Counted from the stretch's first letter, positions 129-12,928 are shown. The stretch: DNA of 33,017 bases from Acidobacteriota bacterium (GCA_031271905.1 JAISUT010000049.1:1-33017), one strand, 5' to 3'. Program-made: numbers and translations. Notes: generated from the letters alone by a model not told the origin.

Positions 129-3100
129 TCAGCGGCGGGACGAAGACCAGTGCTCGGACAACGGCGAGACCTCGCGCACCGAGCCGTACAGGTTCGCCAG
201 CTTCTCCGACGCGACCCGCTTGCCGTCGATGCGGACGTAGACGTCCCCCCCCTCGTGCGCGTCGCCCATGCGGATGGACTTCACATCGAGGAACTCGTTC
301 ATCTTGAGCGCGTTCACCCGCAACTGCACGTCGTCGAAAAGCTGTTCAGCCCCTTTCGCCTTGCAGTTGTCGCAGCAGCAAATCTCCAACTGGTGGACGA
401 CGAACGCCGAGTTGTCCGCTTGGTGCGCGCCCTTCTCCGGCCCGCTGCGGAAAGGCGCGTAATGCGTGTGCAACAGACGGTGCGCGACCTCCGAGTTCGG
501 CTCCCCGTAGTAGTCCTTGTACAGGTTCAATATGTCTGGGTTCTCCTGCGAGCGGCGCAGGGGCGAGTGGCTGTCGATGGTCACCAGCACGTTCTGCCGC
601 TCGTCCAGCGAGCCGGTCTTCTCCGGGATCGGATGCCCCGCGCCGCAGATGCAGCCGCCCGGGCACGCCATCACCTCGATCAGGTCGTAGCCGCAGTCCG
701 CGCCGGCAAGGATGCGCTCGGCTATCGGTGCCACGTTGCCCAAGCCCGAAACCACCGCCACGCGCACTTTCGCGCCGCCAGCCTCGACCACGGCCTCTTT
801 CAGCCCCTCGAAGCCGCGCACCTCCTCGAAGGTCATGGCACCCGCGCTGGGCGTGCCTTCCAGCTTCTCCACCGCCATGCGAAGCGTCGCCTCAGACACG
901 CCGCCCGAGGCGCCGAAGAGCACCCCCGCCGAGGAGACGCGCTTGTACGGCTCGTCGAATTCGCACGGCTCGACCGCCTTGGCGTCGATGCGCATCAGCT
1001 TGATCATGTCCAGCATCTCGGTCGTCGTCAGCACCGCGTCCACGTCGGGGTTCCCGTCCACCGAGAATTCGGGGCGCGTCGCCTCCACCTTCTTGGCGAG
1101 GCATGGGACGATCGACACAACGAACAGCTTCTCGCGCGGGATGCCCGCCAGTTGCGCGAAGTGGTTCTTCACCGTCGCCGCCATCATCTGCTGCGGCGAC
1201 TTGCAGCTCGACAGGTTGGGGATCAGCCCCGGGTAGCGGCGCTCGACGAAGTTGACCCACGCCGGGCAGCACGAGGTCAGGTGCGGCAGCCTTCCCTTCC
1301 CCTGTTGCACGCGGGCCAGGAACTCGGTCGTCTCCTCCATGATGGTCAGGTCGGCGGCGAAGGAGAAGTCGAATATCTTGTCGAAGCCGATGGCGCGCAT
1401 GAGGCCCGCCATGTAAGGGGCCGCCTCCTCGGGCGAGACGCCGAAGGTCTGCGTGATCACCGAGCGCACCGCCGGGGCGACAAAGCCCACCACCGTCAGC
1501 TCCGGGTCGTTGATGGCGCGGAACACCTTCCCCTTGGCGCGGCGGAATTCCAGCGCCCCGCAGGGGCAGGAGTTGACGCACTGGCCGCAGGAGACGCAGT
1601 CGGTGTCCTTCAGCGGCAGGCCGCTCTTGGTGCCGACCAGTTGCCGCCCCTTCTTGTAGTGCAGCGCCAGCACGTCCGGCCCCTCGATCTCGGCGCATGC
1701 CGCCACGCACCGCCCGCAGGAGATGCACTTGTTGTGGTCGCGCACGATGAACGGGTGGTCGTGGACCAGCGGCAGGCTGGGCCGCTCGTGGATGGGTTTC
1801 AGGTAGGTGATGCCATGGGCGGTCGCCTCCTTGCGCAACGTGCAGTTGTTGCGCTCGCCGCAGCCGCACTTCAGGCAGCGCTTGGCCTCCTCGCGCGCCT
1901 CCGCCTCCGTGTAGCCCAGCTCGACCTCCTTGAATCCGCCGACCCGCTCCGCCTTGCCCTCGATGTAGTGCATCGGGGCGCGTATCAGCAACGGCATCTC
2001 CTCGAACTCCCAGCGCGGCAGGTCTTCCAGCGTCCCCCGGCTGCAACTGTACGCCGTGTTCTCCTCGTGGACGTACCCCTTGGTGAGGAACGAGTGCATC
2101 GACTCGGCGGCATGGCGTCCGGCGGCGACCCCCTGGATCACGGTCGCGGGCCCGGTCACGCAGTCGCCCCCCGCGAAAACCTTCTCGGCGGAGCTTTGGA
2201 ACGTCTTGGGGTTGACGTCGATGTCGCCCCACTTGTTCAGCCGCACCGGCAGGTCGTTGTACAAGAAGCGGACGTTCGTGCTCTGGCCGATGGCGCCAAT
2301 GACGGTGTCGGCCTCGATGATGAACTCCGAGCCGTCGATGGGGACCGGCTTGCGGCGGCCCGACTGGTCTTTCTGCCGCCCCAAGTCCATCTTCATGCAG
2401 TGGACTTCCTTGCGCCCGGCGGAGTTGAGCGAGATGCGCACCGGGGACGCGAGGAAGATCATCTCCACCCCCTCCAGCAGCGCCTCGCGCACCTCGAACT
2501 TCTCGGCGGGCATCTGCGCGTGGGTGCGTCGGTAGATGAGCCGCACCTTCGTCGCGCCGCGCCGCATCGCCGTGCGGGCGCAGTCGATGGCGGTGTTGCC
2601 GCCGCCGACCACCACGACGGACTTGCCCGGATGCGCGTCGATGCCCTTGGCCACCTGCTCGAGGTAGTGGATGCCGAGCCGCACGCCGTCGATGTTCTCC
2701 CCCTCGATCTGCAACGGCGTCGCCAGCCAGGAGCCGACCGCCAGGTACACGGCGTCGAAGTCGCGCTGGAGGTCTTCGAGCCGGACGTGCGTGCCGAGCG
2801 CCTTGCCGGTCACGATGCGCACGCCGAGGCTGCGGATGACGTCGATCTCTTTCTCCAGCGTCTCCTTGGGAAGCCGGTACTCGGGGATGCCGTAGCGCAT
2901 CATCCCGCCGGCGTGGGGCTGGCGCTCGAACACCGTCACCTCGTGCCCGTGCAGCGCCGAGTAGTAGGCGGCCGAAAGCCCCGACGGGCCTGCGCCCACG
3001 ACGGCGATGCGCTTGCCGCTCGCCTCCTCCCTATTGGGGATCCAAGGCGTCTCCTGCGCCATGTCCCAGTCGGCGGCGAAGCGCTTGACGTGGTTGATCG

Positions 3101-3614
3101 CCACCGGCTCGTCCACCAGGTTGCGGCGGCAGGCGGCCTCGCAGGGGTGCGGGCAGACGCGGCCGCAGACCAGGGGGAACGGGTTGCGGTCCTTGATGAT
3201 CTTGAGCGCCGTCGCGAAGTTGCCGTTGCCCACCTGGCGCAGATAGCTCTGGATGTCGACGTTGGCGGGACAGGTGTTGACGCAGGGGGCGACGCAGTCG
3301 GCGTTGTGGTCGGACAGCAACTGCTCCAGGCGGATCTTCCGGTAGGCGTCCAGCTTGTGGCTGGTGGTGCGGATGACCATCCCCGGCAGGATCGGCGTCT
3401 GGCACGACTTGACCTCGCGCCCCTCGGGCCCCACCTCGACCACGCACATCCCGCAGTTGCCGTTGGAGCGTTCCACACGGATGTCGTAGCAGAGGTGCGG
3501 CACATGGATGTTCTCCTGCAGCAGCGCCTGGAGGATCGTCAGCCCCGCATAGACCTGGACCTCCCGGTCATTGACCGTCACGGTGATTCGGTTGTTCGCG
3601 TCGAGTGTTGCCAT
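129..3614 (-). CDS. [FeFe] hydrogenase fused to a GltD-like NAD(P)H/FAD domain
   Basis: A 1161-residue soluble iron-sulfur flavoprotein predicted to interconvert H2 and protons with NAD(P)H. Domains in order: NuoG-like [2Fe-2S] ferredoxin (Cys42, 54, 57, 71); a cysteine-rich junction (His103, Cys107, 111, 115); a glutamate-synthase-small-subunit-like FAD/NAD(P) domain with GAGPSG near 207 and GGGN near 337; a Cys580/583/585/591 cluster motif; two ferredoxin clusters (Cys630-640 and Cys673-683); then the H-cluster domain. The three H-cluster motifs are present: TSCCP (780-784), VPCLAKKVE (836-844, Val where Met is usual) and MACPGGCICGAG (982-993). The second TSCCP cysteine is kept, so catalysis is expected. 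The last ~90 residues look like a thioredoxin-fold ferredoxin that has lost its second cysteine pair. Start chosen at ATG preceded by AAGGA at about 10 bases. The maturation genes hydE, hydF and hydG are not in the window. It stands alone, with its own promoter region. Confidence 0.93.
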   Translation of the reverse strand: MATLDANNRITVTVNDREVQVYAGLTILQALLQENIHVPHLCYDIRVERSNGNCGMCVVEVGPEGREVKSCQTPILPGMVIRTTSHKLDAYRKIRLEQLLSDHNADCVAPCVNTCPANVDIQSYLRQVGNGNFATALKIIKDRNPFPLVCGRVCPHPCEAACRRNLVDEPVAINHVKRFAADWDMAQETPWIPNREEASGKRIAVVGAGPSGLSAAYYSALHGHEVTVFERQPHAGGMMRYGIPEYRLPKETLEKEIDVIRSLGVRIVTGKALGTHVRLEDLQRDFDAVYLAVGSWLATPLQIEGENIDGVRLGIHYLEQVAKGIDAHPGKSVVVVGGGNTAIDCARTAMRRGATKVRLIYRRTHAQMPAEKFEVREALLEGVEMIFLASPVRISLNSAGRKEVHCMKMDLGRQKDQSGRRKPVPIDGSEFIIEADTVIGAIGQSTNVRFLYNDLPVRLNKWGDIDVNPKTFQSSAEKVFAGGDCVTGPATVIQGVAAGRHAAESMHSFLTKGYVHEENTAYSCSRGTLEDLPRWEFEEMPLLIRAPMHYIEGKAERVGGFKEVELGYTEAEAREEAKRCLKCGCGERNNCTLRKEATAHGITYLKPIHERPSLPLVHDHPFIVRDHNKCISCGRCVAACAEIEGPDVLALHYKKGRQLVGTKSGLPLKDTDCVSCGQCVNSCPCGALEFRRAKGKVFRAINDPELTVVGFVAPAVRSVITQTFGVSPEEAAPYMAGLMRAIGFDKIFDFSFAADLTIMEETTEFLARVQQGKGRLPHLTSCCPAWVNFVERRYPGLIPNLSSCKSPQQMMAATVKNHFAQLAGIPREKLFVVSIVPCLAKKVEATRPEFSVDGNPDVDAVLTTTEMLDMIKLMRIDAKAVEPCEFDEPYKRVSSAGVLFGASGGVSEATLRMAVEKLEGTPSAGAMTFEEVRGFEGLKEAVVEAGGAKVRVAVVSGLGNVAPIAERILAGADCGYDLIEVMACPGGCICGAGHPIPEKTGSLDERQNVLVTIDSHSPLRRSQENPDILNLYKDYYGEPNSEVAHRLLHTHYAPFRSGPEKGAHQADNSAFVVHQLEICCCDNCKAKGAEQLFDDVQLRVNALKMNEFLDVKSIRMGDAHEGGDVYVRIDGKRVASEKLANLYGSVREVSPLSEHWSSSRR

Positions 3615-3806: not shown

Positions 3807-3916
3807 ATTTGGCACGGTGAAACCACAGGCACATTTACTGGCGAACCACGGCTTGCGCCAGCTCTGTTTCAGGGGGTGGGCGGGAGCATGGGAAACGTAG
3901 GCGCACGCAAGGGCAA

Positions 3917-3943
3917 GGGGGGCGCGGCCATGCCATGCCCCCC
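3917..3943 (-). terminator. GC-rich stem-loop after the molybdoenzyme operon
   Basis: GGGGGGC (3917-3923) pairs perfectly with GCCCCCC (3937-3943) around a 13-base loop. It lies about 65 bases past the stop codon of the last gene of the minus-strand operon and before the hydrogenase promoter region. There is no U-tract, so it may act as a Rho-independent terminator only weakly, or as a 3'-end stabiliser. Confidence 0.4.
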
Positions 3944-4008
3944 AAATCGAAACGGCGCCGGGTTCGCGACACGGGCGAAAGGCGGGACGGCGCCTCGTCC
4001 GGTCGCGG

Positions 4009-4719
4009 CTAGTGGGCGGCCTCCAAGGCGGGGGCGGTTTCAACAGCCCCGCCTTTATCGAGGCGATTGCGCCTCAGGCGCAGGACGCCGTATGACGCGA
4101 AGAGCGCCGCATACACGGCCAGGCTCACGGCGACGTCCACCGACCCGGCCAGCGCCGAGGGGAGCAGCACCAACGCCAGGTGCAGGAAGATGAGCAGGAA
4201 GAACGGGTATGCCAGCGTCTGCACCCGCTTCCACCGCGCCGGCGCGATGAGCTTGCGCACCGCCACGGGCGATGTGGCGGCCAGCGCGGCCAGCAACAGG
4301 GTGACGGCCAACGCGACCGCGAGCGAGGCGACGATGTTGCGGTCGAGCCGGATGTCGTCGTCGAAAAGCTGCGGCGCGAACGTCGCCGTGTAGACGACGA
4401 TATGCCCGAGCGCGAGGATGAACCCGATGATGGCGAGCTGGCGGCGCAACGGGAGCAGCAACGCGCGCGGCTTCGAGCCTTTGGCGAACACCCCGGCGAA
4501 CATCACGAGCGCGAACAACGCCAGCGCGACCCCTCCCCGCTGGACGAGCGCCAGCGGCCAAGGCGCGCCGTACAGGGAAGTGTCGATGTAGTTCGCGTAA
4601 AGGTAGAACCCGGTCGAGAGCAGCGCCAAGGCGTAGAACACGCCCGGCCGCCGTTGCAACGGCTTGCGCAGGGCGAGCGCCAGCGCGGTGGTAATCGCCA
4701 ACGTCAATAGAAACGACAT
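4009..4719 (-). CDS. Ferric-reductase-like heme b membrane protein (MsrQ-like fold)
   Basis: A 236-residue hydrophobic protein with six or seven predicted membrane helices (about 1-17, 28-45, 58-78, 92-112, 127-147, 167-190 and 196-212). The core resembles the ferric-reductase-like transmembrane domain of MsrQ and YedZ: an RRQLAIIGF..LGH segment with His106, and a YPFFLLIFLHL segment with His180. These are the only membrane-embedded histidines, enough for one bis-His heme b. It would pass electrons between the quinone pool and a periplasmic partner. It is the last gene of the molybdoenzyme set, 44 bases after the aminotransferase gene, and no NrfD/PsrC-type anchor is present, so I infer it may be the membrane partner of the molybdoenzyme. 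The start has a GGGAGG about 8 bases upstream. No cysteines. Family membership is by pattern only. Confidence 0.7.
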   Translation of the reverse strand: MSFLLTLAITTALALALRKPLQRRPGVFYALALLSTGFYLYANYIDTSLYGAPWPLALVQRGGVALALFALVMFAGVFAKGSKPRALLLPLRRQLAIIGFILALGHIVVYTATFAPQLFDDDIRLDRNIVASLAVALAVTLLLAALAATSPVAVRKLIAPARWKRVQTLAYPFFLLIFLHLALVLLPSALAGSVDVAVSLAVYAALFASYGVLRLRRNRLDKGGAVETAPALEAAH

Positions 4720-4763
4720 GGAACCAACCTCCCTCCTTTATCAGAAAACCGCGCTTCGCGTCG

Positions 4764-6116
4764 CTAGGCCGCGAGTTTGCGCACAACCGCGAGCAGGCGG
4801 TCGATCTCCTCCGGCGAGTTGTAGACGTGCGTCGAGACGCGCACCCCCTGCACGTCCGGCTCGTTCACCGAACGGGCGTAGATCTTCTCCGCCTCCAGCG
4901 CCCGCAGGATTTCGCCGGGCTCCGCATTGCCGAGGCCGAAGGTCGTGAGCCCCGCCGAGAACTCCGGCTGCGGCGAAGTCCACAGCCTCACCCCCGGCAA
5001 CGCCGCCACCCCTTGCTTCAGGCGGTCGGCGAGGTGATGGACGCGCGCCTCGACGTTCGCCGCGCCTATGGTCTGAAGCAGCTCCACCCCGGCGGCAAGC
5101 CCCGCGTAGGCGGGGATGTTGAGCTGCCCGGTGTTCTCGTAGCGCTGCGCCGACGCGCCGCGCCCGCTTTCATCCTCGACGAACCCGTTGCGCGGCCATA
5201 TCTTGCCTTGGACGTCCCTCTTCACGTAGGTGAAGCCCGTCCCCGTGCCGCCCAGCAGCCACTTCTGGCCGCCGGCGGCGTAATGGTCGATGCCCGCCTC
5301 CTTGACGTCGAGGCCGACGGCGCCCAGCGCCTGCACGCCGTCCACGGAAATCAGCGCGCCGTGCCGGTGCGCCAGCTCCGCCAGCTCCTTGAGCGGGGTG
5401 CGCAGGCCCGTGATGTAGGTGACGTGGCTGACGAAGAGCACGCGCGTCCTGGGGGTGATCGCCTTTTCATAAGCCTCCACGATCTGCCCTGCGCCGCCTG
5501 TCTGCGACGGCGGCGCGGGCGTCTCCACTTGGACGATCTTGACGCCGTAGCGCTTCGCCAGCCCCTCGTAGGCGGCGACGGGCCCGAAGTGCTCGTGCCG
5601 TTTGACGACCACCTCGTCGCCCGGCTTCCAGTCCAAGCCCGCAGCGAAGATGTTCACCCCGTCGGTGGTGGCGTGGGTCAGGGCGACCTCGTCCTCGCCC
5701 GCGCCGATGAAGGACGCCAGACGCCGGCGCACCGCCCCCAGCTCGCCTTGGCGGAAGTTGTTGCGCGGGTCGAGCCCGAGCTCCAAGTCGTATTTGCGGC
5801 GCGCCTCGATGACGAACCGCGACGTGGGGCCGTAGGCGCCGTTGTTGAAGAACGTGATGCCCGGGTCGAGGACGAACTCGCCGCGCAACCGTTTCCAATA
5901 GCCTTCGTCCGGCGCGCCGGACGGCTTGAACGCGGCGATGTCCGGCACCGAGATGTCCACCAGCGGCATCTTGGGCTTCGACTTCCCTTCCGGAGGCGCC
6001 TTGCGCGCCCCGCCGCCTTGGGCGAAAAGGCCGGTCGCGCCGCCGGCGGCCGCCAGCGCCGTCCCCGCCGCCCCTGCCAAAAGCTCCCTCCTAGACCACT
6101 GCTGTGCGTTTCTCAT
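4764..6116 (-). CDS. Tat-exported class-V aminotransferase / NifS-fold PLP enzyme
   Basis: A 450-residue PLP enzyme of fold type I (isopenicillin-epimerase, EgtE and NifS branch). PLP-site residues are visible: SVDGVQ with Asp259 and Gln262, and AAGGQKWLLG with Lys285 as the Schiff-base lysine. The N-terminus has a Tat signal, with Arg9-Arg10 in SRRELLAG followed by a Gly/Ala-rich hydrophobic stretch to about residue 32, so it should be exported folded with its cofactor. The protein has no cysteine at all, so it cannot form the cysteine persulfide of a true NifS/SufS desulfurase. A C-S lyase, an epimerase or another reaction is possible. The start codon lies one base after the stop of the ferredoxin gene, which implies translational coupling with the molybdoenzyme operon. 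Substrate unknown. Confidence 0.85.
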   Translation of the reverse strand: MRNAQQWSRRELLAGAAGTALAAAGGATGLFAQGGGARKAPPEGKSKPKMPLVDISVPDIAAFKPSGAPDEGYWKRLRGEFVLDPGITFFNNGAYGPTSRFVIEARRKYDLELGLDPRNNFRQGELGAVRRRLASFIGAGEDEVALTHATTDGVNIFAAGLDWKPGDEVVVKRHEHFGPVAAYEGLAKRYGVKIVQVETPAPPSQTGGAGQIVEAYEKAITPRTRVLFVSHVTYITGLRTPLKELAELAHRHGALISVDGVQALGAVGLDVKEAGIDHYAAGGQKWLLGGTGTGFTYVKRDVQGKIWPRNGFVEDESGRGASAQRYENTGQLNIPAYAGLAAGVELLQTIGAANVEARVHHLADRLKQGVAALPGVRLWTSPQPEFSAGLTTFGLGNAEPGEILRALEAEKIYARSVNEPDVQGVRVSTHVYNSPEEIDRLLAVVRKLAA

Positions 6117-6117
6117 G

Positions 6118-6726
6118 TCATGCCTTTCCCGCAGAAGAGTTTTCCGATAAAAACACCTTCACATACTTGTCCACGTCCGTGTCCGCGAACGACTTGACCA
6201 GCACGGCGGACGGGTTCGTACGGCCCTGCAATTTCGTATGGCCGCCCACCGCGCCCTTGGGTTTTCCGTCCTTGAGCCACTGGCCGATGTCGCCCACTTC
6301 GAGGGCTTCCCCCGGGCAGGTGCTCGCGCACACCGGCTGCCTGCCTTTCGCCAATCGATCCAGGCACAGGTTGCATTTCTGCATCTTGCCGTTCTTCCCG
6401 TACTTGGGAACCTTGTACGGGCACGCCTTCTCGCAACTCCGGCAGCCGATGCACTTTTTCGCGTCCACGGTCACGATGCCGTCCTCGGCGCGCTTGGTGA
6501 TCGCCTTGACCGGGCAGATCGAGGCGCAGGCGGGCTTGGCGCAATGCAGGCACGACTGCGGCAGGGCGATGTTGACGACCCGCGCCGGGGTCTCCTCCCA
6601 ATAGACTCCGACCGTGCGCCACTTCACGCCGTACTCCACGGCGTTGGCGGCCTTGCATGCCACTTCGCAGGCGGCGCACTGGACGCAACGCCCCAGATGG
6701 ATTTTGAATCCCAGTTGTTTTGCCAT
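6118..6726 (-). CDS. Four-cluster ferredoxin subunit (PsrB/PhsB/DmsB-like)
   Basis: A 202-residue electron-transfer subunit with 16 cysteines in four ferredoxin-type groups: Cys14/17/20/24, Cys59/62/67/71, Cys92/95/98/102 and Cys118/121/133/137. This is the usual layout for the B subunit of membrane-linked molybdopterin oxidoreductases, carrying electrons between the catalytic subunit and a membrane anchor. There is no signal peptide, as expected for a subunit that is exported together with its Tat-bearing partner. The last 50 residues carry no clusters. The gene starts 3 bases after the stop of the molybdoenzyme gene and ends 1 base before the aminotransferase start, so all three are probably made together. 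Confidence 0.93.
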   Translation of the reverse strand: MAKQLGFKIHLGRCVQCAACEVACKAANAVEYGVKWRTVGVYWEETPARVVNIALPQSCLHCAKPACASICPVKAITKRAEDGIVTVDAKKCIGCRSCEKACPYKVPKYGKNGKMQKCNLCLDRLAKGRQPVCASTCPGEALEVGDIGQWLKDGKPKGAVGGHTKLQGRTNPSAVLVKSFADTDVDKYVKVFLSENSSAGKA

Positions 6727-6729
6727 TTC

Positions 6730-9153
6730 CTATCCTTTCGTCGCCGATTGCGACGGGTCTTTGACCACCTCGACCAGCGTCTGGCTCGACATCGCCGTCA
6801 CCAGCGGGTCGTAGGCCTTCTCGCCCACGGAGTACATCGAATTGGTGTTCGCTCCGTACTTCAAGCGCGGCAGCTCCGGTTTTTTCAACTCCGCGCACCC
6901 CTCCCACCAGCCGTGCAGCGCCATCACCGTGTCGCGCCGGATGCCGGGGTTGACGTCCGCCCGCAGCCGGATGGTGTTGTGGGGCGATGAGACCAGCACC
7001 CAGTCGCCCTGCTTGATGCCGCGCGCCCTCGCGGTCTCCGGATGGATCTGGATCGTCGGGTCGGGCATGACCTCCCGCAGGTAGGGGACGTTGCGCAGCC
7101 AGGAGGCGTTGTAGACCTTCGATGTGTGGAAGTCCGAGAGCAGCAAGGGGTACTTTTTCACCAGCTCCGGCGTGCCGGTCAGGCTCTCCGGCGGCTCGCG
7201 CCACTCCGGCAGGGGGTTGTAGCCCGCCTTCTCGAACAGGGTGTTGTAGATCGCAACCTTCCCCTCGGGCAGGTACGGGCCGCGGTCGAAGCGCCCGCTG
7301 CGCGCGGCGAACGCCTGCGCGTACTTCTCGTAGGCCGGCTGGCGAGCGGCAGGGCGGACGATGCCCTGCGGCTTCGCCGTCAGCTCGGCGAGGGTGATGC
7401 CGCGCGAGCGCAACTGCGACTCCTTCCATTCCTTCACGCTGCCGTGCCAGAAGTGCTCGCCGTAGCCCATCCGGGCCCCCAGCTCGATCCAGAACTCGTA
7501 GTCCGACTTGGTGTCGCCGATGGGGTCGATGACTTTGCGGCGCGGCATGATCCAGTTGCCGCCCCCCTCGAAGGGGTGGTCCACCTCGTACATGGTCGAG
7601 ATCGGGATCACGATGTCGGCGTAGTTCATGTCCGAGGTCTTGGCCACGTCGAGGACGACGTAGAAATCGACCTTCTTGAGCGCCTCCAGCACGTTCTTGG
7701 TGCCGCGCGTGCTGGTCGCGGGCTGGGTGCCGGGGGAGATGATCGTCCTGATCTGGTATGGCTTCCCGGTCAACACGCTCTCGAAGATGCGGTAGTACGC
7801 CGAAGTCGGGCTGCCGCTGGTCTGGAAAGGCAACGGGAATTCGGGGCCGACCAGCTTGTTGACGACCTCCTGCGTGTAGCTGAGCCCCCCGTCTTGCCCG
7901 CCGGGGCCTCTGGAGCCGCCGGGCGCGCTCTTGGCTTTGGGCGCGGGGCCGCCCGGCCCCAGTTTCGCCGACGGCTTGGGATTGGCGGCCAGGTTGCCCG
8001 GATCCCCGGGCCCGCCCGGGCCGCCCGGGCCGCCGCCGCCCAGGAGGTTGCCTCCTTTTCTGTCGAGGTGGCCGCAGATGGCGATGAGGATGCCCACCGC
8101 GCGCACCGCGTCGTTGCAACTCGGCGCGTGCTCGAAGCCGTTGCCCGCGTCGATGCACGAATGCTTGGTGGTGGCGAAAAGCCTCGCCACCTCGCGCGTC
8201 TGCGCCGCAGGCACGCCCGAGACCTTCTCCGCCCATTCGGGCGTGTACTTCTGAACGTGCGGCACGAGCTTGTCGAAGCCGTGGGTCCACTTCTCGACGA
8301 ACTCCTTGTCGTAAAGCTTTTCATTGACGACGACGTGCAAAAGCGCCAGGGCGAACGCCGCGTCGGTCCCCGGCCTCACGGGCACCCAGATGTCGGCGAC
8401 GGCGACGTCCGGCTCCATCGTCGGCTTGACGGCGATGATCTTGACGCCGCGCGCCTTGGCGGCCAAGAGCGCGCGCAGGTTCCCCTTGGAGCTGCCGGCG
8501 TAGACCGGCTGCTTCGCCCAGACGACCAGCAGCTTGGTGTTGGCGATGTCCGGGCTGGGCGATCCCCCAAGGGTGTACTGGAAGGAGAAGCCGCGCTGCA
8601 TGGCGCAGATGCCGCTGTGGGCGTAGTTGGGGCTGCCGTGCGCGGCCAGGAAGCGCCGGAAGTAGGAGTTGTACGACCGGGCGGCGGGCGAGAGGATCGC
8701 CAGAGACTCCGCGCCGTACTTTTCCTTCTGCTCCTTCAGCTTCGCCACGATGGTGTCGAGCGCCTCGTCCCAACCGATGCGCTGGAACTTCCCCTCCCCT
8801 TTCGCGCCGACGCGCTTGAGCGGGTAGCGCAGGCGCTCGGTGGAATAGACCCACTGCGGCGCGGCGTGCGACTTGCCGCAGTTGCGCCCCAGGTTCAGCG
8901 GCGCCTCCGGCAGCGGCTCGATGCCGACGAAACGGCCGCCGCGCACGACGGCGTTGATGCCGCATCCCTGGCTGGGGCCGCACATGCCGCACATGGTCGG
9001 GATCAGTTTTTCCTCGGGCTGGGCGGCTCGGGCGATCCCGGACGGCGCGAGCAAGGGCGAGATCGCGCCCCAGACCGCCGACTGGACGCCCAGCGCGCCC
9101 GCCGCCTTCAAAATGCTGCGTCGGGTGACTTCGGTGTCATTGGATTCAAGCAT
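6730..9153 (-). CDS. Tat-exported molybdopterin oxidoreductase (PsrA/PhsA-like)
   Basis: An 807-residue catalytic subunit of the DMSO-reductase superfamily, most like polysulfide/thiosulfate reductase A. A Tat signal is at the start (TRRSILKAAG, residues 10-19, then a hydrophobic stretch ending near Ala44). The N-terminal [4Fe-4S] motif is Cys55, Cys58, Cys64 and Cys92, which spaces the second and third cysteines by five residues rather than the usual three. Cys183 in HSGICAMQRG is the likely molybdenum ligand. The C-terminal region (about 670-800) looks like the dinucleotide-binding domain. Residues 373-423 form a Gly/Pro-rich insertion with repeated GGPGGPG, absent from relatives I recall. 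The physiological substrate cannot be read from sequence; sulfur compounds are favoured by the YezD-like neighbour. The start is before a clear Tat signal, with only a weak ribosome site. Confidence 0.88.
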   Translation of the reverse strand: MLESNDTEVTRRSILKAAGALGVQSAVWGAISPLLAPSGIARAAQPEEKLIPTMCGMCGPSQGCGINAVVRGGRFVGIEPLPEAPLNLGRNCGKSHAAPQWVYSTERLRYPLKRVGAKGEGKFQRIGWDEALDTIVAKLKEQKEKYGAESLAILSPAARSYNSYFRRFLAAHGSPNYAHSGICAMQRGFSFQYTLGGSPSPDIANTKLLVVWAKQPVYAGSSKGNLRALLAAKARGVKIIAVKPTMEPDVAVADIWVPVRPGTDAAFALALLHVVVNEKLYDKEFVEKWTHGFDKLVPHVQKYTPEWAEKVSGVPAAQTREVARLFATTKHSCIDAGNGFEHAPSCNDAVRAVGILIAICGHLDRKGGNLLGGGGPGGPGGPGDPGNLAANPKPSAKLGPGGPAPKAKSAPGGSRGPGGQDGGLSYTQEVVNKLVGPEFPLPFQTSGSPTSAYYRIFESVLTGKPYQIRTIISPGTQPATSTRGTKNVLEALKKVDFYVVLDVAKTSDMNYADIVIPISTMYEVDHPFEGGGNWIMPRRKVIDPIGDTKSDYEFWIELGARMGYGEHFWHGSVKEWKESQLRSRGITLAELTAKPQGIVRPAARQPAYEKYAQAFAARSGRFDRGPYLPEGKVAIYNTLFEKAGYNPLPEWREPPESLTGTPELVKKYPLLLSDFHTSKVYNASWLRNVPYLREVMPDPTIQIHPETARARGIKQGDWVLVSSPHNTIRLRADVNPGIRRDTVMALHGWWEGCAELKKPELPRLKYGANTNSMYSVGEKAYDPLVTAMSSQTLVEVVKDPSQSATKG

Positions 9154-9296
9154 GCTGGTATCCCGGATTCAGACGAGGGCTTCCGGTCGTCCGGTCTGCC
9201 GTCGGTTCGCTGTTTCAATTCAAAGCCGGCTTGGCGCTCCGGTTGATCCGGTCGTGCGTGAAAAGCCGTTTTCCGTAAGGGCGCACCCCATGGCCC

Positions 9297-9317
9297 CGAC
9301 CCCGGGAAGCGGGGTCG
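9297..9317 (-). terminator. Stem-loop between the DUF2292 gene and the molybdoenzyme gene
   Basis: CGACCCC (9297-9303) pairs perfectly with GGGGTCG (9311-9317) around a 7-base loop. It lies 25 bases past the stop of the DUF2292 gene and about 145 bases before the molybdoenzyme start. With no U-tract it may be an attenuator or an mRNA-processing boundary rather than a full terminator. Confidence 0.35.
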
Positions 9318-9341
9318 CGCCGCGCAAGGGGCGCCCCTCCG

Positions 9342-9557
9342 TCAATTCGTCACCACTCCGGATTGGACCCGGATCTTCCTCTTGCATTCGATCAAGACCA
9401 CCCGGGAGTCGTGGATGGTGACCTCCACCGAGCCGTAGCGGATGCCGCGCACGGCGCTCAGTATCGCCGACTCGGCGCTCTCCGCCCGCTCGACGCCGGA
9501 AAAATGATAGTTCTTCACGACGCCCCCTTCGTTCCCCCCGTTGCTGGCTTCGGACAT
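9342..9557 (-). CDS. DUF2292 (YezD-like) small protein
   Basis: A 71-residue protein whose second half, ILSAVRGIRYGSVEVTIHD and the following VVLIE segment, matches the DUF2292/YezD family. That family of 50-70 residue proteins is often found beside sulfate or sulfonate assimilation genes; its biochemical role is not known. The first 25 residues are Gly/Asn/Glu-rich and not conserved. Two starts are possible: ATG at 9569 has its AAGGAGG too close, while ATG at 9557 has GGAGG with a 5-base spacer, so I chose the latter. It is in line with, and 188 bases before, the molybdoenzyme gene. Confidence 0.75.
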   Translation of the reverse strand: MSEASNGGNEGGVVKNYHFSGVERAESAESAILSAVRGIRYGSVEVTIHDSRVVLIECKRKIRVQSGVVTN

Positions 9558-9638
9558 CTCCACCTCCATCCTCCTCCTTCTTCCCTGTGACGGGCGCGCC
9601 GCGCGGCGGCCCTCGGCGCACGATGCGCCCCACGCCCC

Positions 9639-10037
9639 CTATTCCCGGCCCGCCCGCGCCTGGTAGCGCAAGATCGCGTCTTCGATGTCGGCGAACTTCT
9701 CCCGGCGGATGACGACCATCTCGCGCCCTAGGCGGCGGGCGCAGTCCTTTGCCAGGAACATGCTTCCGTGGCTGTTGAGCTGGGTGATCACGAACACGAT
9801 GTCGGCGCGGCCGATCTGCGACCGCAACACCTTCGCGCCGCGCCCCCCCACCGCGCCGGGGTGCGTCTCGACCTTCCAGCCCGCCGTCTCGCCCCGCTCT
9901 ATCAGGTGTTTGGACGTCCTTTCGTGCCCGCCGATGAGGACCACCCGCAGCGGCCTCGCGAAATAACCGGCGCCCCCCGCCGGGGCGATCCCGCCCCTTT
10001 GCACCCCTCCGAACCCCTTCTGCAACCCCTTTCGCAT
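9639..10037 (-). CDS. DUF2325 domain protein
   Basis: A 132-residue protein. The core, VLIGGHERT (near 38-46), GGRGAKVLRSQIGRAD (near 65-80) and VITQLNSHG (near 83-91), is the signature of DUF2325, a small Rossmann-like family of unknown function found in many anaerobes and thermophiles. I placed the start at ATG 10037 because GGAGGG lies 5 bases before it and the reading frame upstream of that has no conserved content. The gene is 81 bases before the DUF2292 start in the same direction and may head the operon. No catalytic residues can be named with confidence. Confidence 0.78.
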   Translation of the reverse strand: MRKGLQKGFGGVQRGGIAPAGGAGYFARPLRVVLIGGHERTSKHLIERGETAGWKVETHPGAVGGRGAKVLRSQIGRADIVFVITQLNSHGSMFLAKDCARRLGREMVVIRREKFADIEDAILRYQARAGRE

Positions 10038-10115
10038 GAAACCCTCCGTCAAGCCTTGCGCCCGATTTTCCGGTCTCCGCTGGTGTTTGCAGTCGTCCGG
10101 ATGCCTATGTGCCGC

Positions 10116-10134
10116 GCGACAGGGCGACTGTCGC
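10116..10134. other. Perfect short hairpin in the DUF2325 leader
   Basis: GCGACAG (10116-10122) pairs with CTGTCGC (10128-10134) around a 5-base loop. If transcription starts near 10280 on the minus strand, the hairpin is in the 5' leader of the DUF2325 gene. It could also be an operator. Confidence 0.35.
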
Positions 10135-10286
10135 ATATCTTGGGAAGTGCTTGCCGATCAGTGTGTCTGCGGAGAGTCTACAGTCGCTATGCCCTTGCCG
10201 CAGGACACGCCGCCGGCCTGCTACAACACATCCTGCGGCATCCATACTCAAGTGTGCCCATCAGCTTTATAGTCATAACGCCGCTA

Positions 10287-10337
10287 TTTTTACCAAGGAA
10301 TAGCTGACAATGTCAATGGAAATTAATATATTTGACA
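10287..10337 (-). promoter_or_regulatory. Back-to-back TTGACA elements in an AT-rich island
   Basis: On the minus strand a perfect TTGACA (10316-10311) is followed after 18 bases by TAAAAA (10292-10287), a reasonable promoter for the DUF2325 gene 250 bases downstream. A second perfect TTGACA lies on the plus strand at 10332-10337, but no good -10 hexamer follows at 16-18 bases. Together the two hexamers form an inverted repeat TGTCAA-N15-TTGACA, so the pair may instead be a regulator site between divergent genes. Confidence 0.4.
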
Positions 10338-10505
10338 AAAAAACTTTTCTGAGAACTTTTCGAGGTTGGAAAATCTATAGAACGCGACGGAGGGATGTGC
10401 GGATTTCGATCCATGGGTTGCAATCCCCCCATCGTGCGCATGGAGTATCCGGCGCGACTGGTTGCAATCCCGGCGGCGCAGGTATACCTTATACGAATCA
10501 TGTTC

Positions 10506-10537
10506 TTGTTCGGGGGGTTCGTGAGCCTCTCGAACAA
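10506..10537 (+). other. Stem-loop in the lipoprotein mRNA leader
   Basis: TTGTTCG (10506-10512) pairs with CGAACAA (10531-10537). The stem can extend by five more pairs, two of them G-U, leaving an 8-base loop. It lies about 45 bases before the lipoprotein start codon, followed at once by an AAAGGAG copy and later by the real ribosome site, also AAAGGAG. It could control translation or mRNA stability. Confidence 0.4.
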
Positions 10538-10582
10538 AGGAGTCAAGCTTTCCGCGAATTTTTTTCAAAGGAGACCGATACC

Positions 10583-11590
10583 ATGAGACACCGTTTTTCA
10601 CTGTTTTGCCTGCTCACCCTCGGTTTGGCTCTCGCCCTGGGCGGTTGCTCGAGATCTCAGCAAGCGCAGGCGCCAGAGGCGGTGGAGCCCCTGGCGGACC
10701 AAGATGCGACGGAGGCGGAGGACGCATTGGACGCAGCCGCAATGCCTGAAACCATAACGCTCGACGGCAAGACCTACCAGCTCCTGGATCCATCCCAGCC
10801 GATCCCGGACGGAACTGTGACGACGACCTTCGAGGGCAGGACTTACAAGCTCGTGCCCACGCCGGCGGCGGGCTCGCCGAGACCCACGACGACGCCGAAG
10901 CCGTCCACTCCGCCGTCCTCGGCGTCCAACCAGCCGACCACGACGACTCCCCCCGCCGCAGCCGCTCCTGAGGCGCCCGCCGCATCGACACCCGCCACGC
11001 CGCCCGCCCCGACGCGCGCGACGCTGGCCGCGGGAACCCCGATCAACATCATCACCTCTTCCGAAATCTCCACCAAGACCGCCAAGGTCGGGGATTCCTT
11101 CGAAGCGGTGCTCAACGAGAACCTCAGCGCCGACGGTACGGTCATCGCACGGCGCGGCGCCCTCGTCACGGGCGTGGTCACCGAATCCGACCCCGGCGGG
11201 CGGGTCAAGGGCACGGCGTCCATGGCGTTGCAACTGACCAGCCTGGCATTGGCCAGCGGCCGGACCGCCACGGTTAAAACCAACAACTACGAAGTGACGG
11301 CTGAAAGCTCCAAGAAGAAGGACGCCACCAAGATCGGCATCGGCGCGGGCATCGGCGCCGCCATCGGCGCGATCGCGGGCGGCGGCAAGGGCGCGGCCAT
11401 CGGCGCGGGCGTAGGCAGCGCGGCGGGCACGGGCACGGTGCTGGCGACGCGCGGCGACCCGGCCGTCGTCGAGGCCGAAGTCCCCCTCACATTCAACCTG
11501 ACCTCGCCGCTGACCGTCACCCTCGGGGACGGCGCCGCCCAAGGGGCCCGCGGCAACCGTGGCGAGCGCCGCGAGAGGACGAACCAGTAA
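10583..11590 (+). CDS. Glycine-zipper lipoprotein
   Basis: A 335-residue predicted lipoprotein. The signal peptide ends in LALGGC, with Cys22 as the lipidated residue. Residues 55-95 hold two short repeats (ITLDGKTYQLL and TTTFEGRTYKLV). Residues 96-145 form a Pro/Thr/Ala/Ser-rich linker. A conserved domain begins near ATLAAGTPINI (147-157) and contains a run on preventing or limiting exposure typical of acidobacterial envelope proteins (ARRGALVTGVV). Residues 251-285 form a glycine zipper (GIGAGIGAAIGAIAGG and onward), which usually packs membrane-inserted helices. The tail is Arg-rich. The start is fixed by AAAGGAG 8 bases upstream and by the signal peptide; the open frame continues upstream without meaning. 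Probable periplasmic or outer-membrane location; exact function unknown. Confidence 0.82.
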   Translation: MRHRFSLFCLLTLGLALALGGCSRSQQAQAPEAVEPLADQDATEAEDALDAAAMPETITLDGKTYQLLDPSQPIPDGTVTTTFEGRTYKLVPTPAAGSPRPTTTPKPSTPPSSASNQPTTTTPPAAAAPEAPAASTPATPPAPTRATLAAGTPINIITSSEISTKTAKVGDSFEAVLNENLSADGTVIARRGALVTGVVTESDPGGRVKGTASMALQLTSLALASGRTATVKTNNYEVTAESSKKKDATKIGIGAGIGAAIGAIAGGGKGAAIGAGVGSAAGTGTVLATRGDPAVVEAEVPLTFNLTSPLTVTLGDGAAQGARGNRGERRERTNQ

Positions 11591-11617
11591 CGGCGCGGCT
11601 CGCGCGCATTCAGGGGG

Positions 11618-11645
11618 CGCCCCGGCGACGGCATCCGCCGGGGCG
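11618..11645 (+). terminator. Strong stem-loop after the lipoprotein gene
   Basis: CGCCCCGGCG (11618-11627) and CGCCGGGGCG (11636-11645) form a perfect 10-bp stem with an 8-base loop, 28 bases past the lipoprotein stop codon. There is no U-tract. It ends only 17 bases before the DUF763 start codon, so it may also affect translation of that gene. Confidence 0.5.
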
Positions 11646-11662
11646 ACCGCCCAACCGCCCTT

Positions 11663-12928
11663 ATGAAACGCTCGGGATTCGCAGACTTGCCGCTCCACCG
11701 CGGGCGCGTGCCGCATTGGCTCGCCGACCGCATGGCGAAGCTGGGCGCCGCCGTCGTCGAGGCGATCCTAGTCCATTACGGCCACGCCGAGTTCCTGTCC
11801 CGCATCGCCGACCCGTTCTGGTTCCAGGCGCTGGGCGCGGTCATGGGGATGGATTGGCATTCCTCGGGCATCACCACCTCCGTCATGAACGCCCTCAAGC
11901 GCGGCTTGGCGCCGCGCGCGGAGGAGTTGGGCGTCTACATCTGCGGCGGGCGCGGCAACAGATCCCGCAACACCCCGGCGGAGCTGTTGCGCGTCGCCGA
12001 GCGCCGGTCCCTGGACGGCGACGCCTTGGTGCAGACCAGCCGCCTCACCGCCCGCATCGACAACAACGCCATCGCCGACAGCTTCCAACTCTACCTGCAC
12101 ACGTTCGTGCTCTGCTCTGACGGGGAGTGGGCGGTCGTGCAGCAGGGGATGAACGAGGCGACGGGCATGGCGCGCCGCTACCATTGGCATTCGGCGGCAG
12201 TCCGCGACTTCACCTCCGCCCCGCACACGGGCATCGTGGGGGAGCCGCAGGGGATGATCATGAACCTGGTGGACGCCGCGGCGGGGGAGGCGCACCAGGC
12301 GATGCTCGCCATCGTCAAGGATGCTCCGGACAAGACCGTGGGCGAGGCGAGGCGGCTCCTCATGCCGCGCCATCACGAAGTCCGCGCTGGCGACGTCGAT
12401 CTGAAACGGCTGGGCGCGGTGCTGGCGCTGGCATACGAGCGGGACTTCCGCGATTTCGCCTCGCTCTTGCTGCTGGAGACCCTGGGCCCGCGCACGCTCC
12501 AGACGCTGGCGCTCGTCGCCGAGGTCGTCCACGGCGCGCCGACGCGCTTCTCCGACCCGGCGCGCCACTCCTTCGCGCTGGGCGGCAAGGACCGCCACCC
12601 CTTCCCCGTCCCGCTCAAAACCTACGACGAGTCGGTCTCCGTGCTGCGCAGGGCGTTGGATGCCGCCAAGGTGGGGGACGGCGAAAAGCTGGAGGGGTTC
12701 CGCCGCCTGGAGCGGTTCGCGCGACGCATCGAGGAACGTTGCGACCCTCGCGCCGATTTCGCGGCGACGGTCGCGCACGAGTTCGCCGTCTCGAAGCGAT
12801 ACGGGGGGCGCACCGTCTTTGACGGCGCCGACGACGCGCGCAACGCCAGGGCGTCCGAGGCGGCCGGCCCCGGCACGGCGGAAAAGCCGCGCCCCGCCCG
12901 CAAAGGGCAGATGCCGTTGTTCGGTTAA
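11663..12928 (+). CDS. DUF763 domain protein
   Basis: A 421-residue protein of the DUF763 family, best known from archaea and thermophilic bacteria and without an established function. Family hallmarks are KRSGFADLPLH at the N-terminus, GMDWHSSGITT near 62-72, GVYICGGRG near 89-97 with SRNTP, the HWHSAAVRDF segment near 173-182 and LMPRHHEV near 233-240. The many conserved His, Asp and Arg residues suggest an enzyme, possibly acting on nucleic acid, but this is inference. The last ~40 residues are low-complexity and end in KGQMPLFG. The start is fixed by the conserved N-terminus, although no ribosome-binding site is visible in front of it. The gene converges on aroQ. Confidence 0.85.
   Translation: MKRSGFADLPLHRGRVPHWLADRMAKLGAAVVEAILVHYGHAEFLSRIADPFWFQALGAVMGMDWHSSGITTSVMNALKRGLAPRAEELGVYICGGRGNRSRNTPAELLRVAERRSLDGDALVQTSRLTARIDNNAIADSFQLYLHTFVLCSDGEWAVVQQGMNEATGMARRYHWHSAAVRDFTSAPHTGIVGEPQGMIMNLVDAAAGEAHQAMLAIVKDAPDKTVGEARRLLMPRHHEVRAGDVDLKRLGAVLALAYERDFRDFASLLLLETLGPRTLQTLALVAEVVHGAPTRFSDPARHSFALGGKDRHPFPVPLKTYDESVSVLRRALDAAKVGDGEKLEGFRRLERFARRIEERCDPRADFAATVAHEFAVSKRYGGRTVFDGADDARNARASEAAGPGTAEKPRPARKGQMPLFG

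Follow-up and report, generated by a model that had tools for sequence, protein, structure and literature searches.

Gene Content of the Locus

The window, meaning the whole stretch of DNA analyzed here (33,017 nucleotides), is contig 33 of a 3.4-Mb Acidobacteriota genome. Its minus strand carries a series of seven genes running from position 10136 to 129, which encode a DUF2325 protein, an OscA/DUF2292-like protein, a molybdopterin catalytic subunit (MopB), a ferredoxin, a class-V aminotransferase-fold PLP enzyme (AT5), a PF01794 membrane protein, and a hydrogenase fusion. The four genes from MopB to the PF01794 protein are separated by 3, 1, and 44 bases, as the original prediction had described. 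Each of the four proteins passes its own Pfam cut-off, and third-position GC supports the coding status of all four genes.

MopB (6730–9153; 807 residues) is a Tat-exported, bis-MGD-type catalytic subunit with an N-terminal 4Fe-4S site, a metal-ligand Cys183, and the Tat motif TRRSILKAAG. The ferredoxin (6118–6726; 202 residues) is of the DmsB/PsrB type. Its 16 Cys residues account for four 4Fe-4S sites, in agreement with the four clusters predicted earlier, and it has neither a Tat motif nor any other signal peptide of its own. AT5 (4764–6116; 450 residues) carries the PLP Lys285 and, as had also been recognized, its own Tat signal (SRRELLAG). The ferric-reductase-like PF01794 protein (4009–4719; 236 residues) is the only membrane protein of the operon.

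The operon probably extends upstream to the gene of the small OscA/DUF2292-like protein (9342–9569; 75 residues), located 188 bases from MopB and overlooked in the original prediction. The DUF2325 gene (9639–10136), identified at the Pfam level, is perhaps also a member and possibly the first gene of the MopB transcription unit. Downstream, the [FeFe]-hydrogenase group A-type protein (129–3614; 1161 residues) contains fused NuoG-like 2Fe-2S and GltD-like flavin/NAD(P) domains. A gap of 394 bases that includes an AT-rich stretch precedes its gene, which is therefore probably separate; a single operon that includes the hydrogenase is unlikely. On the opposite strand, a DUF763 protein gene (11663–12928; Pfam score of 412 bits) has no relation to the MopB operon.

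MopB Represents a Rare, Separate Family

The catalytic subunit had been described as PsrA-like, a designation that does not hold. The best named family in NCBIfam is the thiosulfate reductase PhsA, with 358.8 bits against a cut-off of 694. In the PDB, acetylene hydratase (AH) and Thermus PsrA are equal matches (261 and 256 bits, respectively, and 307 bits each by profile). Phylogenetic analysis places the window MopB, its 77% identical paralog from the same genome, and their relatives in a 23-row clade (support 99/95), separate from AH and from PsrA and PhsA, which group together (100/99), in a tree with long branches among the reference sequences. Assignment to PsrA/PhsA was rejected based on the PhsA score below the cut-off, the separate clade, and the lack of an NrfD/PsrC/PhsC anchor in the operon. 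The family retains Cys183, which aligns with the metal-ligand Cys of AH and PsrA. It also retains Q186, Q477, and a CGP motif, which are absent from AH and PsrA where these align. The catalytic Asp13 of AH adjoins a cluster Cys; the residue following Cys58, the second cluster Cys of MopB, is Gly59, in a stretch that the AH alignment did not reach. Judged by these sequence features, MopB is a member of a rare, separate, and uncharacterized MopB family.

The exported MopB also contains a collagen-like Gly/Pro-rich insert (GGGGPGGPGGPGDPG...) at residues ~372–424 (window positions 7880–8040, minus strand). The insert is shorter in the paralog, Gly-rich in the Bryobacterales locus L034, and missing from most relatives. 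The paralog itself lies on another contig (locus L015, G000:C25, 1–4068), which stops at the 3′ end of its gene, and immediately before it, in the same direction, is the gene of an exported M28 peptidase.

The majority of the 18 loci returned by a search of genome contigs with MopB are clear relatives, with 53–64% identity in the best segment. These come from Acidobacteriota, Opitutaceae, Thermodesulfobacteriota/Myxococcota, Chloroflexota, and Actinomycetota; three (L019, L023, and L030) are Acidobacteria MAGs of the same genus as the window genome. The family is rare, occurring in 6 of 396 Acidobacteriota genomes (about 1.5%), in 1 of 388 genomes from the phylum of the Opitutaceae, and in 1 of 257 from the order of the Bryobacterales genome. 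Plasmid searches with the operon proteins retrieved just distant PhsA/DmsA proteins and haloarchaeal PLP enzymes. Tat signals are present on MopB from the window, its paralog, L019, both copies of the Opitutaceae locus L020, L024, and L032. For around a dozen relatives that lack a Tat signal, a cytoplasmic location is presumed.

A four-cluster ferredoxin adjoins nearly every MopB relative, and no other neighbor is constant. The standard unit of the family is thus MopB plus ferredoxin, which bears on the claim that the usual NrfD anchor is missing. NrfD is indeed missing from the window operon: a whole-genome search with PF03916 detected just one NrfD, whose gene adjoins that of another MopB on contig 45. 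(PF14589, NrfD_2, was dropped as a probe because it matched none of the controls.) Its absence is the norm for the family, so it reflects no replacement event. L024 also encodes a second MopB (39%), which is accompanied by a separate ferredoxin and a nearby NrfD. A NapH-like, quinol-dehydrogenase-type protein encoded upstream at L020 suggests that the membrane partners of MopB–ferredoxin vary where present.

The Exported PLP Enzyme

AT5 of the window contains no Cys residue, and no Cys is conserved across the AT5 family. Cysteine desulfurase (SufS/IscS) and Moco sulfurase were therefore dropped as candidate activities, as the persulfide-forming Cys is absent. PLP Lys285 and the substrate-carboxylate residues Arg415 and Arg426 are conserved. 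The top solved structure is the L-cyst(e)ine C-S lyase C-DES (1elq) with 125 bits, barely above PvdN (119) and SufS (112), so the structure matches do not pin down the reaction. Among the NCBIfam families, PvdN matches best, with 148 bits where the cut-off is 650. An AlphaFold model of AT5 was too weak for fold searches (pLDDT 48). Eight further Acidobacteriota genomes, none of which yielded this MopB, encode AT5 relatives with 47–50% identity, so AT5 has a role of its own. An M19 dipeptidase gene lies beside AT5 relatives of one family (f36).

Recurrence of MopB, Ferredoxin, and AT5

The original prediction proposed a functional link between the exported molybdoenzyme and the PLP enzyme, and looked to conservation of the four-gene order for confirmation. 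The exact order was conserved in none of the genomes found. MopB, ferredoxin, and AT5 do co-occur in two other genomes, and the membrane protein does not accompany them. In Opitutaceae L020, the order is MopB–ferredoxin–MopB–MOSC/MobA–AT5–MoaA-like radical SAM, and both MopB and AT5 carry Tat signals. In the Bryobacterales MAG (L034), AT5 is convergent with the MopB–ferredoxin pair. This locus (9001–12250) is damaged by decay or assembly error: MopB is missing the N-terminal region and some internal sequence, the ferredoxin ends early, and AT5 is frameshifted. It consequently weighs less as an instance of the pairing. The SRR motif is present in AT5 of both loci, and the best AT5 match in either genome is the copy adjoining MopB. 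Six other MopB-bearing genomes searched contain no close AT5.

The three AT5 copies linked to MopB are monophyletic in the AT5 tree (100/99). Their clade spans two phyla and its terminal branches are long, as would suit an ancient association that has been retained. Unsupervised clustering of the neighbors at 22 loci places AT5 among the most recurrent after MopB and ferredoxin. Assuming one AT5 per ~4-Mb genome and ~15 independent MopB loci, a rough estimate gives ~0.04 occurrences of AT5 within 5 kb of MopB by chance, compared with three seen.

A competing explanation is that MopB–ferredoxin is a lone exported oxidoreductase whose transcription unit happens to include AT5 and the membrane protein as unrelated passengers. 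Most MopB–ferredoxin loci are without AT5, AT5 is found without MopB, and the membrane protein is a singleton, all of which would be expected of such an enzyme. However, the 1-base gap between the ferredoxin and AT5 genes, the recurrence in two further genomes, and the single clade of linked AT5 copies make coincidence improbable for AT5, and we consider this explanation rather unlikely. Since it is found again in another phylum, the combination of MopB–ferredoxin with the exported AT5 is probably a real recurrent module. Co-inheritance with AT5 would point to an extracytoplasmic substrate of the amino-acid type, possibly one that contains sulfur.

The PF01794 Membrane Protein

The membrane protein matches PF01794, a domain of the MsrPQ/ferric-reductase superfamily, with 33.3 bits against a gathering score of 28. 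About six helices appear in an AlphaFold model of low confidence (pLDDT 59) that is too weak for a fold search. The only His residues besides one at the C-terminus are His106 and His180, which would allow at most one bis-His heme; heme binding is putative. No match was detected at an E-value of 1e-10 among 396 Acidobacteriota genomes, and none lies near any MopB relative. The protein looks like a lineage-specific singleton added locally to the module, to which its sole link is the 44-base gap. The claim that it stands in place of NrfD could therefore be true at most for the window lineage. A role in electron transfer is tentative and somewhat doubtful, and the odds that the membrane protein alone is an unrelated passenger are about even.

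Sulfur-Related Neighbors

Several neighbors of MopB are related to sulfur metabolism. The OscA/DUF2292-like protein upstream of the window MopB belongs to a sulfur-starvation-associated family, which it matches at 43 bits against an equivalog cut-off of 85. CoA-disulfide reductase and rhodanese are encoded near MopB at L032, L037, and L038; the neighbors at L032 also include TauE and Nitro_FeMo-Co. An octaheme cytochrome of the tetrathionate-reductase family is encoded directly upstream at L038, and L039 contains a fragment that carries this domain. Because L037–L039 all belong to one genus, these sulfur neighbors, which were picked out post hoc, amount to two lineages, and they occur in relatives without AT5. 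Neighbors of other MopB relatives include AFOR (identified by eye), GlcD, sulfolactate/malate-dehydrogenase-like proteins, TRAP transporters, and an amidohydrolase. In the closed Acidobacteriota genome of L037, a single multidomain protein (3829–6306, minus strand), ~0.8 kb downstream of MopB–ferredoxin, combines CoA-disulfide reductase, rhodanese, TusA, and DsrE2.

Sulfur chemistry, which the original prediction had also raised, is the best-supported theme for the module. Besides the neighbor genes, C-DES as the top solved structure of AT5 and PhsA as the best named family of MopB, though far below its cut-off, speak for it. Together they make sulfur the leading theme without proving it. We would give a sulfur-containing substrate even chances.

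Proposed Function and Alternatives

The explanation that best accounts for the whole is that the exported MopB–ferredoxin acts together with the exported AT5 on a sulfur-bearing amino acid, to which we assign a probability of roughly 40%. MopB and the four-cluster ferredoxin would form a Tat-exported, two-subunit molybdo- or tungsto-enzyme working outside the cytoplasmic membrane. AT5, exported separately by Tat, would most likely need no catalytic Cys to cleave or rearrange its substrate, which could be cystine, cysteine, or a cysteine substituted at sulfur. MopB–ferredoxin might next reduce, oxidize, or transfer the sulfane-type sulfur set free by AT5, and in the window lineage alone, the PF01794 protein could act as the electron carrier linking the ferredoxin and quinones. 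Within this scheme, a C-S lyase role for AT5 is a minority possibility. A still more speculative and improbable extension is extracytoplasmic sulfur transfer, in which C-S or S-S bonds would be formed or broken by a Cys-free PLP C-S lyase in cooperation with a molybdoenzyme from a new family.

The strongest alternative is a non-sulfur, amino-acid-type substrate, which MopB–ferredoxin would hydroxylate, dehydroxylate, or reduce and AT5 would transaminate, epimerize, or oxidatively decarboxylate in a PvdN-like manner. PvdN is the best NCBIfam match of AT5 and ranks just behind C-DES in the PDB; the M28 peptidase gene upstream of the MopB paralog and the M19 dipeptidase gene beside the f36 AT5 relatives also suit a substrate of this type. 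MopB matches AH as well as it does PsrA, and the catechol dehydroxylases, which are either soluble MopB and FeS pairs or Tat complexes, are AH relatives (PMC7028382). However, siderophore or aromatic-degradation genes were not recognized beside the window operon, and sulfur-transfer genes are among the recurrent named neighbors of the relatives. This alternative is unlikely in absolute terms, though a serious competitor to action on a sulfur-bearing amino acid.

Lastly, AT5 might be a sulfuration factor, a cysteine desulfurase that activates the Mo/W center as Moco sulfurases or the MES desulfurase domain (see below) do, given its class-V fold and its location at L020 between MOSC/MobA and the MoaA-like radical SAM gene. 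This is very improbable, as Mo cofactors are inserted into Tat substrates prior to export while AT5 has its own Tat signal, and as AT5 is free of Cys while MES requires Cys1074 and Cys1135 (PMC9516567).

The analysis defines a rare molybdoenzyme family to which no substrate has been assigned. Its sequence signature is clear: CGP following the first cluster motif, and SGICAMQ at the metal site. If the module does act on sulfur, it would be the second case, after MES, of a molybdoenzyme and a PLP enzyme joined in sulfur chemistry and, as far as we know, the first that is exported.

Comparison with Known Systems

Literature searches that paired MopB with class-V aminotransferases or with ferric-reductase-like membrane proteins and NrfD gave nothing of use, nor did those on DUF2292/yezD. 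PsrABC and PhsABC share with the window system a Tat-exported catalytic subunit with a 4Fe-4S site and Cys ligand, and a PsrB-like four-cluster ferredoxin. The window system differs in that MopB belongs to another clade and scores about half the PhsA cut-off, the NrfD/PhsC anchor is absent, and a PLP enzyme is added. AH is as close to MopB in sequence as PsrA is, yet it groups elsewhere in the tree.

PvdN is a Tat-exported class-V PLP enzyme that tailors pyoverdine in the periplasm. AT5 shares its fold class and export route but falls far below the PvdN cut-off, and to our knowledge PvdN has no tie to a molybdoenzyme. C-DES resembles AT5 in its conserved PLP Lys and carboxylate Arg and in that a catalytic Cys is not needed, whereas the Trp of its ‘VGWRS’ stretch is not conserved in AT5. 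We know of neither export nor a molybdoenzyme tie for C-DES.

The gut catechol dehydroxylases occur as soluble MopB and FeS pairs or as Tat-exported complexes with an anchor (PMC7028382). They resemble the window system in that anchor-free MopB and FeS pairs exist; a PLP partner is not described for them in the text consulted.

The original prediction held that no system of this composition had been described, which overlooks the metallopterin-dependent ergothioneine synthase (MES) of Caldithrix abyssi, a single chain that unites a class-V PLP desulfurase with an AH-like MopB module (PMC9516567). MES transfers sulfur from cysteine to trimethylhistidine (PMC9516567). Both systems combine an AH-related MopB bearing a Cys metal ligand with a class-V PLP enzyme, in MES for sulfur chemistry and in the window putatively so. 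EgtD, the histidine methyltransferase co-encoded with MES, was not recognized beside the window operon. In MES, the MopB module is fused to an IscS/NifS-type desulfurase that depends on a catalytic Cys, whereas the window proteins are encoded by separate genes and AT5 is Cys-free. Neither a ferredoxin subunit nor export is described for MES, while the window encodes a four-cluster ferredoxin and Tat signals on both MopB and AT5. By analogy, MES is the closest precedent, in that it shows sulfur chemistry shared between a class-V PLP enzyme and a MopB-like module, and were extracytoplasmic sulfur transfer to apply, the window module would be its split, exported, and mechanistically different counterpart.
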